From NCBI GenBank assembly GCA_016192075.1, contig JACPUU010000004.1, positions 1 to 64,000 of the forward strand: a stretch of DNA of 64,000 bases, given 5' to 3'. Below the pieces are notes generated by a model. That model searched no databases. It was not told where the DNA came from and was given only the letters and a program-made list of their open reading frames with translations. The translations under genes were made by a program, and so were the position numbers. Shown here piece by piece: positions 1,833-5,030 of this stretch. Source of the stretch: Bacteroidota bacterium. Its GTDB lineage: Bacteria > Bacteroidota > Bacteroidia > Flavobacteriales_D > Crocinitomicaceae. Positions within the stretch are counted from its first letter, which is position 1. Each line of letters opens with the position of its first letter.

Positions 1833-1866
1833 TTAGGAGTTAGCTCTTAGGATTTAGGAGTTAGTA
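1833..1866. repeat. Left arm of inverted repeat flanking the S23 gene
   Basis: 34 bases made of copies of the short word TTAGGAGTTAG. Compared with the reverse complement of 2331-2364, 25 of 34 positions match, including an 11-base perfect run at the inner end (AGGAGTTAGTA). It lies between the S23 stop and the sdhB start. Confidence 0.8.
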
Positions 1867-1898
1867 TCCATACCCTAAAGGTCGCTGCTAAATGAAAA

Positions 1899-2318
1899 TT
1901 AGTAATTTCTTTTTCGTTCCAGAGAAGCAATCAAACTTCGAAGCATTTTACTTGTTTCCTGCAAACTGCTTTTTGATTCAGATAGACTCTCTTTTGGTAA
2001 ATAATTTAAATTTTCAATTAATGTTAATTGTGTCTCAACCTCGCAAAGTGAACCAAACGAAATTTTGAGATGATGGATATAACGGCCAGTAACTGCTACT
2101 CCCCAACCTTCAGCTATATTACTCGGAACGGAAACGGCAGATCTCCTTATTTGTGAAGTAAGTCCGAATTTTTCATCTTCAGGCATTAATGATGTAATTG
2201 AATAGATGTGTTTGACTAATTCCATCCCCTTCTGCCATACCAAAAGGTCCTTATAGGAATTAATCTTCCCATAACTGATGTTTGTTTCTTCAACTATATC
2301 TAAAAACTCATCCTTCAT
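1899..2318 (-). CDS. Four-helix-bundle protein, S23/23S rRNA intervening-sequence family
   Basis: 139 residues with the family signature: an N-terminal DLLVWQKGMELV helix, a central QIRRSAVSVPSNIAEGWG segment, and two further helices around SFGSLCEVETQL and SSLQETSKMLRSL. Proteins of this family were first found in intervening sequences that interrupt 23S rRNA genes in some bacteria; they form small all-helical bundles, often pentameric, and their role is unclear. Here the gene lies between sdhA and sdhB, flanked by imperfect inverted repeats at 1833-1866 and 2331-2364, so it looks like an inserted unit and not an original operon member. Start 13 bases from the right repeat arm. Confidence 0.92.
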   Translation of the reverse strand: MKDEFLDIVEETNISYGKINSYKDLLVWQKGMELVKHIYSITSLMPEDEKFGLTSQIRRSAVSVPSNIAEGWGVAVTGRYIHHLKISFGSLCEVETQLTLIENLNYLPKESLSESKSSLQETSKMLRSLIASLERKRNY

Positions 2319-2330
2319 CCGGTCCTTTTT

Positions 2331-2364
2331 TACTAACTCCTGAGAGCTAATTCCTAACTCCTCT
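2331..2364. repeat. Right arm of inverted repeat flanking the S23 gene
   Basis: Inverted partner of 1833-1866 (25 of 34 bases match in inverted orientation). It overlaps the sdhA stop codon (2363-2365) by two bases. In the sdh transcript the two arms could pair around the S23 reading frame. Confidence 0.8.
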
Positions 2365-4366
2365 ACTTATAGCTCCGTTGAACCAATTTAATATTCTCAA
2401 AAACCAGTTCTTCCTTATGTCTCACCGGTTCATTTTCCAACCCTTTAAATTCCCACGCGGCAACATGTGCAAAATGGTTGTCATCACGCAGTGCTTCTCC
2501 TTCTTCGGTTTGGTATTCTTCACGGAAGTGACCGCCGCACGATTCATTTCTGTTAAGCGCATCGCGGCACATCAGTTCTCCCAGTTCCAGAAAGTCAGCT
2601 ACGCGTCCGGCTTTTTCAAGTTCCTGGTTGAATTCGTTGGCTGCACCGGTAACACGAACGTTGGCCCAGAAATCAGCACGAATAGCTTTAATCTCTTCAA
2701 TAGCCTGTTTCAAACCTTCTGCATTACGGGCCATTCCGCATTTATTCCACATTACTTTTCCAAGTCTTTTGTGGAAATAATCAACCGGTTTGGTTCCTTT
2801 GCTGGATAGGAATTTTTCAATGCGTTCTTTTACCTGTTTTTCGGCTTCGTCAAATTCCGGTGTGTTGGTTGGAATTTTTCCGGTGCGGATATCGTTTGCC
2901 AGGTATTCGCCAATAGTATATGGAATTACAAAGTAACCGTCAGCCAGCCCCTGCATCAATGCTGATGCTCCAAGGCGGTTAGCACCGTGATCAGAGAAGT
3001 TGGCTTCACCCAGCGCATAACAACCCGGAATGGTTGTCATCAGGTTATAATCAACCCAAAGGCCACCCATGGTGTAGTGAACTGCCGGGTAAATCATCAT
3101 CGGCGTTTCGTAAGGATTTTCACCGGTGATTTGCATGTACATGTCAAACAGGTTTCCGTATTTTTCTTTCACTACTTCACGGCCCAGGCGCGTAATAGTC
3201 ATGCTGTCGGGATTCACAATTCCTTTTTTGGTGCATTCAATTTTTCCATAGCGCTCAATGGCTGCAGCAAAATCAAGGTAAACCGCTTCACCGGTTGCAT
3301 TAACACCGTGGCCGGCATCGCATCTTTCTTTTGCAGCGCGTGACGCTACGTCACGTGGCACCAGGTTTCCGAATGACGGGTAACGGCGCTCCAGGTAATA
3401 ATCGCGGTCAGCTTCAGCTAAATCAGTTGGCTTTTTACGTTTTTCACGAATGGCCATCACATCTTCTTTTTTGGCAGGCACCCAAATACGTCCGTCATTT
3501 CGCAGTGACTCTGACATCAACGTCAGTTTAGACTGGTGATCACCTGAAACCGGAATGCAGGTAGGGTGAATTTGGGTATAACATGGATTTCCAAAATAGG
3601 CACCGCGTTTATACGCTTTCCAGGCGGCAGTAGCGTTGCTTCCCATAGCATTGGTTGACAGGAAAAAAACGTTTCCGTAACCACCGGTACACAACAAAAC
3701 GGCGTGTGCTGAATGTCTTTCAATTTCACCGTTAACCAGGTTGCGTGCTATAATACCGCGGGCTTTGCCGCCCACAATAACCATGTCAAGCATTTCATGA
3801 CGGCTGTACATTTTGACGGATCCTTTTGCGACCTCTTTCGAAATAGCAGAGTAAGCACCCAGCAACAATTGCTGGCCTGTTTGTCCGGCAGCATAAAATG
3901 TACGCTGAACCAATGTACCGCCAAATGAACGGTTGTCCAGCATTCCGCCATAATCACGTGCAAAAGGCACACCTTGTGCCACACATTGATCAATAATGTT
4001 GGCGGACACTTCAGCCAGGCGGTGAACATTTGCTTCACGTGCGCGGTAGTCGCCTCCTTTAATTGTATCGTAAAATAAACGGAAAGTTGAGTCGCCGTCA
4101 TTTTTATAATTTTTTGCGGCGTTGATTCCTCCCTGGGCGGCAATAGAGTGCGCACGGCGGGCTGAATCCTGGAAACAAAATGCTTTTACGCTGTATCCCA
4201 TTTCTGCCAGTGAGGCAGCGGCCGATGCACCTGCCAGACCTGTACCAACAACAATGATATCAATAGAGCGTTTATTTGCCGGGTTAACCAGGTTAACGTG
4301 ATCTTTATAATAGGTCCATTTATCTTTAAGATCACTCTTTGGTATTTTTGAATCTAAAACTGACAT
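2363..4366 (-). CDS. sdhA: Succinate dehydrogenase/fumarate reductase flavoprotein subunit
   Basis: Catalytic subunit oxidising succinate to fumarate in the TCA cycle, or the reverse with menaquinol. The N-terminal dinucleotide-binding fold ([17 protein letters not shown], near residues 40-56) is followed by the [14 protein letters not shown] segment whose His carries covalent FAD. The active-site region appears as HPTCIP and later [14 protein letters not shown]. The length of 667 residues fits the Bacteroidota menaquinone-type enzyme. It starts 7 bases after sdhC, so the two are co-transcribed; the stop codon touches the inverted repeat at 2331-2364. Confidence 0.97.
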
Positions 4367-4373
4367 GGTGTAA

Positions 4374-5030
4374 TTAGTTTAACAGTGAAACATAATGGAA
4401 CAAAGCAATTACAATAAATCCCAGCGGAATTGCAATAGCGTAAATGTTTCCTAATTTTTTAATGGCTGGTGTATAGCGGTTGTGGCGGAAACCAACTGAC
4501 TGGAATGAGGACTGGAAACCATGCAGCAGGTGAAGTGCCAGGAAAATAAAAGCGGTGCAATAAAGCGCAACGCGAACCGGGTTTACAAATTTATGCTGCA
4601 GTTCGCCAAAATAGCGGCCAGGATCTTCAGGTCCGAATTCCACATATTTGTAGCCAATTTCAGGGAACCAGAAATCGTAAAAGTGAAGCCCTAAAAATGC
4701 AAGTACGGTTAACCCCGTAATAATCATGTTGCGGGACATCCAGGTTGAATTGGCTGCTGCACCGTTTACGGCATATTTTACAGAGCGGGCCTTTCTGTTT
4801 TTTGCTTCCAGTACAATTCCCATAACCAGGTGAAAAATTACTGCAAACAGCAGAATTGGCTGGATAATGAACTGAATGATTGGGTTATATCCCATAAAAT
4901 GCGAAGCACTGTTAAAGGCATCTGCACTTATAACTGACAAAGAGTTAATGATAAAATGCTGGAATAAAAAAAGGAGCAGGAATAAACCCGAAAGCGCCAT
5001 CAGAATTTTCCTGGCAATGGATGTTTTCAT
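4374..5030 (-). CDS. sdhC: Succinate dehydrogenase cytochrome b subunit (single membrane anchor)
   Basis: 218 residues with about five membrane helices (near residues 10-30, 55-75, 105-120, 155-170 and 195-215) and several helix His residues able to bind two hemes, as in the fused SdhC anchors of Bacteroidota and Bacillus. No sdhD is present, as expected for this type. First gene of the operon. A promoter at 5219-5248 predicts a leader of about 185 nt with a small hairpin near 5106-5124. Confidence 0.95.

Follow-up and report, generated by a model that had tools for sequence, protein, structure and literature searches.

The window, that is, the whole 64,000-nucleotide stretch of DNA that was analysed, includes an sdh operon located on the minus strand. 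In the direction of transcription the operon comprises sdhC, which codes for the cytochrome b subunit (nucleotides 4374 to 5030; TIGR02046, 162.7 bits), sdhA, which codes for the flavoprotein subunit (2363 to 4366; NF005749, 1178 bits, and TIGR01811), and sdhB, which codes for the iron-sulfur subunit (1051 to 1812; NF005746, 442.5 bits). Most of the junction between sdhA, the upstream neighbor, and sdhB, the downstream neighbor, is occupied by a unit (1833 to 2364, minus strand) consisting of an S23 gene (1899 to 2318, minus strand) and a heptamer arm on each side of it. Read in the sense of the S23 gene, the 5′ arm (2331 to 2364, minus strand) has the structure AGGAGTT AGGAATT AGCTCTC AGGAGTT AG and directly adjoins the sdhA stop codon (2363 to 2365). 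The 3′ arm (1833 to 1866, minus strand), which on the plus strand reads TTAGGAG TTAGCTC TTAGGAT TTAGGAG TTAG, resembles the dispersed copies described below. Both arms are degenerate arrays of a 7-mer with a period of 7. An inverted-repeat scan of 6 kb showed that nucleotides 1835 to 1866 and 2331 to 2362 are 78% complementary over 32 nt and that the inner 11 nt (1856 to 1866 and 2331 to 2341) pair perfectly. The original prediction, according to which an S23-family gene lies between sdhA and sdhB, is enclosed by inverted repeats with a perfect inner 11 nt, and has a right arm touching the sdhA stop codon, was thus confirmed, the flanking genes being identified by curated families; it was silent on the 7-base period of the arms. 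The same scan also returned an unrelated inverted pair of 30 nt and 77%, with its arms 1,724 nt apart, and therefore the match between the arms would prove little taken alone: judged by length and identity only, the sdhA-sdhB inverted repeat is not beyond chance. It is more than chance because the arm word recurs across the genome. The S23 gene is the only ORF of at least 60 amino acids within the unit, which includes no REP-associated tyrosine (Y1) transposase, and a search of nucleotides 1700 to 2500 against Rfam gave no match at E values up to 1.

The S23 gene codes for a 139-amino acid protein of the four-helix-bundle family also known as 23S-rRNA-IVP. Its amino acid sequence matched PF05635 (E 8.1e-36, 122.9 bits against a cut-off of 33.8), TIGR02436 (E 4.4e-34, 117 bits against a cut-off of 24), and the Xanthomonas S23 protein of solved structure, XCC0516 (PDB 2gsc, E 5.9e-20), which has been described as a homopentamer (PMC4990558). 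A weaker match was found to Avd (NF033474, E 2.8e-5; PF22296, E 1.9e-4), an accessory protein of diversity-generating retroelements (PMC10053308), the score of 24.4 bits being well below the Avd equivalog cut-off of 80. The S23 genes are under purifying selection, with dN/dS ratios of 0.05 to 0.15 in eight of the ten pairs that yielded a value, three of these eight having a dS above 1 and hence an unsure ratio; the two remaining pairs, both with L121, had ratios of 0.25 and 0.48, and for an eleventh pair no dS was obtained. The protein encoded by the unit is not basic (pI 6.3, compared with medians of 8.5 to 9.0). We know of no catalytic site in S23 proteins, which are common and have a solved structure and, to our knowledge, no known function. 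The source genome (4.65 Mb) harbors four S23 genes. One of them, L003 (C8:43122-43430), is a divergent S23 gene without a clear heptamer frame that, by eye, lies beside a tRNA-like sequence and inverted repeats.

The arms of the sdhA-sdhB unit recur in the source genome, mostly without a gene. The arm word TTAGGAGTTAG has 40 matches, compared with one for the reversed control, and these fall into 17 places when matches within 1 kb of each other are merged. Two of the 40 are in the sdhA-sdhB unit and 11 are in a single tandem array. Twelve places were read, allowing up to two mismatches per arm word: ten have the form of a hairpin without a gene, the loop measuring 9 to 131 nt, one is the sdhA-sdhB unit, and one is the tandem array, which lacks an inverted partner. 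The array (L017, C7:89158-89664) is composed of about five 117-bp units, each including a TTAGGAG arm. A 13-mer spanning the distinctive TTAGCTC unit, TTAGCTCTTAGGA, has 22 matches with at most one mismatch, against two for its control, including two in the sdhA-sdhB unit and five in the tandem array. Eighteen of these 22 are on the plus strands of the contigs and four on the minus strands, five of the 18 being those of the one tandem array. Across the dispersed copies the variant heptamers come in the same order, which indicates that the arms form one homologous dispersed family. As in REPIN/RAYT systems, then, short dispersed hairpins share the flanks of a protein gene. A lag-7 array scan was also tried as a copy finder on 400 kb of the same genome and returned two arrays at the strict threshold and three at a looser one; the strict scan finds few arrays because the arms are short and degenerate, and word searches did better.

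A second S23 unit of this genome, L001, located between hisB and hisH, has a different arm word, TAAGGAGTAAG, with 19 matches in the genome, three of them within the unit itself, and none for the control. The strict pattern built on the arm word of the fourth S23 gene, L004, has two copies, one in its own unit, against none for the control, and no dispersal was seen with it. One of the gene-less hairpins of this genome (L008) lies between homologs of cysD and cysN, and two other genomes, G002 and G041, carry S23 units exactly at this cysD-cysN site, which was named by domains.

To follow the unit in relatives, 59 genomes were searched, the source and 58 members of its family and order. An sdhB match was found in 55, the sdhA-sdhB junction was examined in 53 of these, and 52 junctions were readable. 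An S23 unit of 414 to 550 nt is present at 11 of the 52, the source included; the junction is 45 nt or shorter in 30 and 57 to 111 nt long in nine. This patchy distribution does not agree with a unit present in all relatives, which was one part of the outcome that the original prediction had named as adverse to it. The G017 junction, 301 nt long, is heptamer-like in sequence, and no S23 gene was detected in it. In G014 (L250, 76-703, minus strand) it includes a nucleotidyltransferase and HepT-like pair instead of S23 (PF01909, E 6.1e-13; PF01934, E 2.9e-28), and the sdhA-sdhB gap therefore seems to accept other small cassettes too. Two genomes of a single genus differ at this site: G001 has the unit, and the junction of G023 is 66 nt long and, by eye, looks like a left arm with nothing else of the unit. 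Arm words vary from genome to genome, and the S23 proteins found at the sdh site are mostly each other's relatives. Reading the 52 junctions by eye, we noticed no target-site duplication; these comparisons yielded no clean strain-level pair with and without the unit, and no insertion, excision or transposition was observed in them. The source sdhB has its nearest counterparts in G054 and G044 (85%), and the S23 protein of G054 is the sister of the source S23 in the tree; for this reason the S23 gene and the sdh operon may travel together.

Other operons of the order carry S23 units as well. The enlarged order-level set consists of 77 distinct genes chosen among the matches listed, namely the best per genome and others by E value, and is not a random sample; 49 of these 77, or 50 of the 78 rows in which one gene stands twice, are at eight sites common to at least two loci, the commonest being fad (18), sdh (11), and suf (8). 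In example loci the hisB-hisH, accB-accC, and sufB-sufC sites were identified by curated families; the fad site has a FadB-like gene, below the family cut-off, followed by a thiolase, and the carbamoyl-phosphate synthase site (L300) was recognized by the downstream large subunit only. Both neighbors are co-oriented with S23 in 54 of the 77 genes from the matches listed, and both are opposed in three. The same arrangement is found in 24 of the 29 genes under 45% GC within the cross-phylum set described below (the best 80 loci and plasmids). A simple ORF caller gave both neighbors co-oriented in 26/33 order-level, 48/85 cross-phylum, and 10/30 GC-rich xanthomonad loci; since this caller is misled by high GC, the enlarged order-level and low-GC counts are preferred. 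S23 units prefer co-directional operon junctions.

In a tree of S23 proteins (78 rows, 77 of them different, and 126 columns, with many unresolved forks; L004 is absent) the proteins cluster by site. The number of label changes was two for sdh against 10.2 after shuffling, five against 15.0 for fad, and two against 7.6 for suf; two small sites are barely clustered or not at all. Ten of the 11 sdh rows, from hosts of families f1, f3, f8, f10, f11, and f13, form one group. Exceptions include L042 (G032), a fad-group S23 located at the sdh site, and L082 (G051), an sdh-type S23 at another location. Clustering by site across host families suggests that most copies are old residents and that movement is slow. 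It appears from these comparisons that the units mostly stay at their site, are often lost, and occasionally change site.

The period-7 inverted flanks were then considered as a general feature of S23 genes. A cross-phylum set was composed of the best 80 S23 loci among named genomes and five cyanobacterial plasmid loci, the latter chosen from 26 plasmid records with an S23 match; it included 90 S23 genes, 88 of them usable, and related loci, such as those of Xanthomonas, were counted separately. An array was scored when a window within a 250-nt flank had at least 18 of 28 positions matching at lag 7. By this measure 68 of the 88 genes in this set of the best 80 loci and plasmids have a flanking array, compared with 11 of 76 windows about 1 kb away. 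Among other lags the same genes gave counts of 0 to 6 at lags 3-6 and 9-13, 13 at lag 8, and 56 at lag 14, a harmonic of 7. The two flanks of a gene match each other as inverted sequences with a score of at least 16 in 67 of these 88, as direct sequences in 28, and as inverted sequences with swapped partners in nine; the inverted score is below 14 in 14 of the 88. An order-level set of 33 genes behaved similarly, with lag 7 in 23/33 against 3/28 and scores reached by 25 inverted, 14 direct, and five swapped pairs; L004, which is below the search threshold, was added by hand to this set and is absent from the later one. Among the 77 distinct order-level genes from the matches listed, 47 have lag 7, 20 have lag 8, and 63 have either; the order-level counts include L003, the S23 gene without a clear heptamer frame. 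The genome G053 includes three related S23 genes with three different arm words, which makes a strict pairing between protein and word doubtful. Two of the plasmid loci, L114 and L115 (Nostoc and Anabaena plasmids), are S23 units with heptamer-like flanks, one located between two ribonucleotide reductase genes and the other between cas6 and cas4; the ribonucleotide reductase genes run on the strand opposite to the unit.

The abundance of heptamers in a genome was compared with the presence of S23 in a sample of 149 Xanthomonas-family genomes drawn around a center picked for having S23; 64 of them include an S23 gene. The pattern GGGANTCGGGANTC derives from GGGANTC, the word found in the arms of many xanthomonad S23 units; its median number of matches is 113 in the 64 genomes with S23 and 0 in the 85 without (Mann-Whitney p 4e-14, a test that ignores relatedness). 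At least 10 matches were found in 47/64 of the former and 12/85 of the latter. In the 17 S23-bearing genomes with fewer than 10 matches, some have other words in the S23 flanks, as read by eye. The presence of S23 is not phylogenetically clustered in a SufB tree of 29 genomes (nine changes against 10.0 after shuffling), which came from a stratified sample of 15+15 with G219 left out for want of a usable SufB. Independent contrasts of S23 and heptamers over five pairs, with 2.5 the same way and 0.1 the opposite way, did not reach significance (p 0.25), the test having too little power. The reversed GGGANTC control word is abundant in G077 (the genome of L185, Thiohalocapsa halophila) and G111, with 143 and 97 matches, respectively, and is probably another heptamer family. 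Five S23-rich genomes from the order of the source, sampled over 400 kb in total, gave 14 lag-7 arrays; a single genome accounts for nine of these, and two genomes gave no array. Five S23-null genomes, sampled over about 377 kb, gave none.

Twenty dispersed places were read in two genomes reached via Rhodanobacter and Dokdonella loci. All 20 are inverted pairs, a result favored by the choice of places, which were picked for close plus and minus matches. One of the 20 is an S23 unit; in the other 19 the loops, which are mostly unrelated to each other, measure 24 to 159 nt and could not accommodate an S23 gene. A comparison of the 20 loops in all 190 pairs gave eight similar pairs, with similarities 15 to 26 nt long, and the internal relatedness expected of MITEs was not found in this two-genome set; the loops of the source genome were read by eye.

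Could the association be passive, with S23 an ordinary operon passenger and heptamer arrays growing by slippage near operon junctions irrespective of S23? The tested heptamer word does reach at least 10 matches in the 12 genomes without S23 mentioned above, and heptamer repeats have been published with no mention of S23 in the parts of the reports that are accessible (PMC4692102, PMC4679880, PMC2700814). However, the arrays are tied to S23 in many phyla (68/88 versus 11/76 in the best 80 loci and plasmids), the flanks are inverted with respect to each other (67/88 versus 9/88 swapped in the same set), and slippage neither makes inverted partners nor spreads an ordered series of heptamers to distant sites. 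We consider a passive association very improbable. Another possibility is that the unit acts as an intervening sequence at the mRNA level, as the original prediction had proposed: RNase III would cut the folded arms, the S23 segment would be released, and sdhCA and sdhB would become separate messages. On this view the arms would be kept for their function in RNA. In the predicted RNA of the unit the arms pair over 9+4+11 bp, with a z score of −2.31 for the whole unit and two of 100 shuffled sequences folding as well. The rRNA intervening sequence of Coxiella, in which an S23 gene and heptamers are likewise present and RNase III cuts at the first repeat (PMC4990558), indicates that such a transcript can be processed. 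In three groups of units the arms at one site pair better on average with their own partner than with other partners (sdh, 10 of the 11 units, −32.9 versus −23.5 kcal/mol; fad, 18 units, −30.2 versus −21.8; suf, 8 units, −35.0 versus −31.0), but the own arm is the best partner in only 4/10, 7/18, and 3/8 of them, respectively. An RNA helix accommodates G·U but not A·C, and arms retained for their folding in mRNA would therefore be expected to have G·U mismatches in preference to A·C ones in the sense strand. No excess of G·U was found among the arm mismatches of 137 units (G·U 254, A·C 263, p 0.73). The order-level subset had 116 G·U and 90 A·C (p 0.08; 101 and 73 at a stricter threshold, p 0.04) and the cross-phylum subset leaned the other way (111 and 140, p 0.08). 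The mismatches therefore give no indication that the complementarity of the arms is maintained by RNA pairing, and of the mRNA proposal the predicted folding and the Coxiella precedent stand while the expected trace in the mismatches does not appear; we think it unlikely that this is why the unit exists.

A role in host regulation is to our judgment equally unlikely. S23 would in that case be a post-transcriptional regulator that binds the heptamers at operon junctions and tunes subunit ratios, with its own arms serving autoregulation and the dispersed hairpins constituting its regulon. Purifying selection on S23, the stable site-specific S23 lineages extending over several host families, and the co-oriented operon junctions would all suit a regulator, and a regulatory role has been suggested for the TAACTGA heptamers (PMC4679880). 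On the other hand, the distribution is patchy (11/52 sdh junctions, 64/149 Xanthomonas-family genomes), the words are not constant within an order or among the related S23 genes of a single genome, and nothing requires the gene of a regulator to be nested among the sites that it binds in many unrelated operons.

The explanation to which we incline, with somewhat better than even confidence, is that the sdhA-sdhB unit is the gene-bearing form of a widespread, heptamer-bounded selfish unit resembling the intervening sequences, and that S23 promotes the spread of the arms. The mobility of the unit is inferred from the comparison of genomes. The suggestion of a mobile unit, also made in the original prediction, agrees with the patchy presence at the sdh junction, the other recurrent sites, the gene-less copies, and the link between S23 and repeats; the clustering of S23 by site speaks against frequent movement. 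According to this selfish-unit model, an S23 gene set between inverted arrays of a 7-base word peculiar to the genome would be the autonomous form and the gene-less arms scattered in the genome would be non-autonomous hairpins. S23, as a relative of Avd, may bind its own unit at the heptamer arms and, in trans, the arms of the gene-less copies, and may help host enzymes to copy or insert the arm-bounded DNA. The lack of an RNA-strand signature in the mismatches makes a DNA-level or copying mechanism preferable, and S23 probably acts at the level of DNA or of the copying of nucleic acids. Insertion directly after a stop codon and ahead of the following gene, co-directional with transcription, would let the host operon express the unit with little harm, and any folding or cleavage of the stem in mRNA would be a side effect by which the unit is better tolerated. 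Inheritance in place would be the rule for the unit at any one site, with frequent loss and rare movement, and the classical intervening sequences of 23S rRNA would represent insertions of such units into rRNA. Against the selfish unit as a general rule are the observations that in Coxiella S23p was judged not to be made in vivo and its ORF to be under reductive evolution (PMC4990558), and that, in the study of Rehm et al., heptamers of Xanthomonas and Nostoc showed no association with mobile elements and genomic stability was increased in their vicinity (PMC4692102).

A broader proposal, which we advance tentatively and hold to be a little short of an even chance, is that S23 proteins are the drivers of an unnamed class of mobile elements present in many phyla, consisting of inverted-heptamer units that lack a recognizable transposase and probably spread by the copying of arm-bounded nucleic acid, with S23 as an Avd-like adaptor. 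Many of the heptamer repeats of Xanthomonas, Nostoc, Beggiatoaceae, and Geobacter would then be gene-less offspring and the rRNA intervening sequences would be insertions into rRNA. If S23 and the heptamers belong to a single system, the one would account for the other: S23 would acquire a probable ligand, namely inverted arrays of a 7-base word; the heptamer repeats, so far treated in separate reports for xanthomonads, cyanobacteria, sulfur bacteria, and Geobacter, would acquire a probable driver; and the rRNA intervening sequences would become part of a wider family. In the open literature, excluding subscription journals and bioRxiv, we found nothing joining S23 with heptamers outside rRNA or describing such units at operon junctions.

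Among known systems, REPIN/RAYT consist of short dispersed hairpins tied to a protein gene that has the same flanking repeats, with words specific to each genome. The sdh unit shares the dispersed hairpins with the flanks of a protein gene and the genome-specific words, and differs in having a four-helix S23 protein instead of a tyrosine transposase, arms with a period of 7, and loops that are mostly unrelated. This last property also separates the heptamer hairpins from ordinary MITEs. S23 belongs to the same superfamily as the Avd protein of diversity-generating retroelements; as noted, its score is far from the Avd cut-off (24.4 against 80), and its direct neighbors are sdhA and sdhB. Heptamers have been reported as GGGAATC and GGGGA(C/T)T in Xanthomonas and Nostoc, TAACTGA in Beggiatoaceae, and GGGACCG in Geobacter (PMC4692102, PMC4679880, PMC2700814), and two Xanthomonas genomes have 70 and 75 inverted heptamer pairs (PMC4692102). 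Like the words of the S23 arms, they are seven bases long and mostly intergenic, and in many xanthomonad S23 units the arms are built from the Xanthomonas word; the accessible parts of these reports draw no link to S23, and in one of the three no transfer mechanism was evident.

Intervening sequences with an S23 ORF are found in the 23S rRNA of Leptospira and Coxiella. The sdh unit resembles them in having an S23 ORF inside an inverted repeat, a similar size and, as in Coxiella, heptamers. It is unlike them in being located in a protein operon, between sdhA and sdhB, instead of in 23S rRNA, and in having dispersed gene-less copies of its arms in the source genome. The Coxiella intervening sequence is 428 nt long, and tandem GACAGAT heptamers, whose number varies between strains, precede its S23 ORF (PMC4990558). 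That ORF is described as decaying, whereas S23 is under purifying selection in the pairs compared here. The paper on the Coxiella intervening sequence is the nearest published precedent (PMC4990558); the sdh unit can be considered a unit of the same type in a protein operon, which is new, and S23 and its heptamers as one mobile system would, if mobility is shown, be a new kind.
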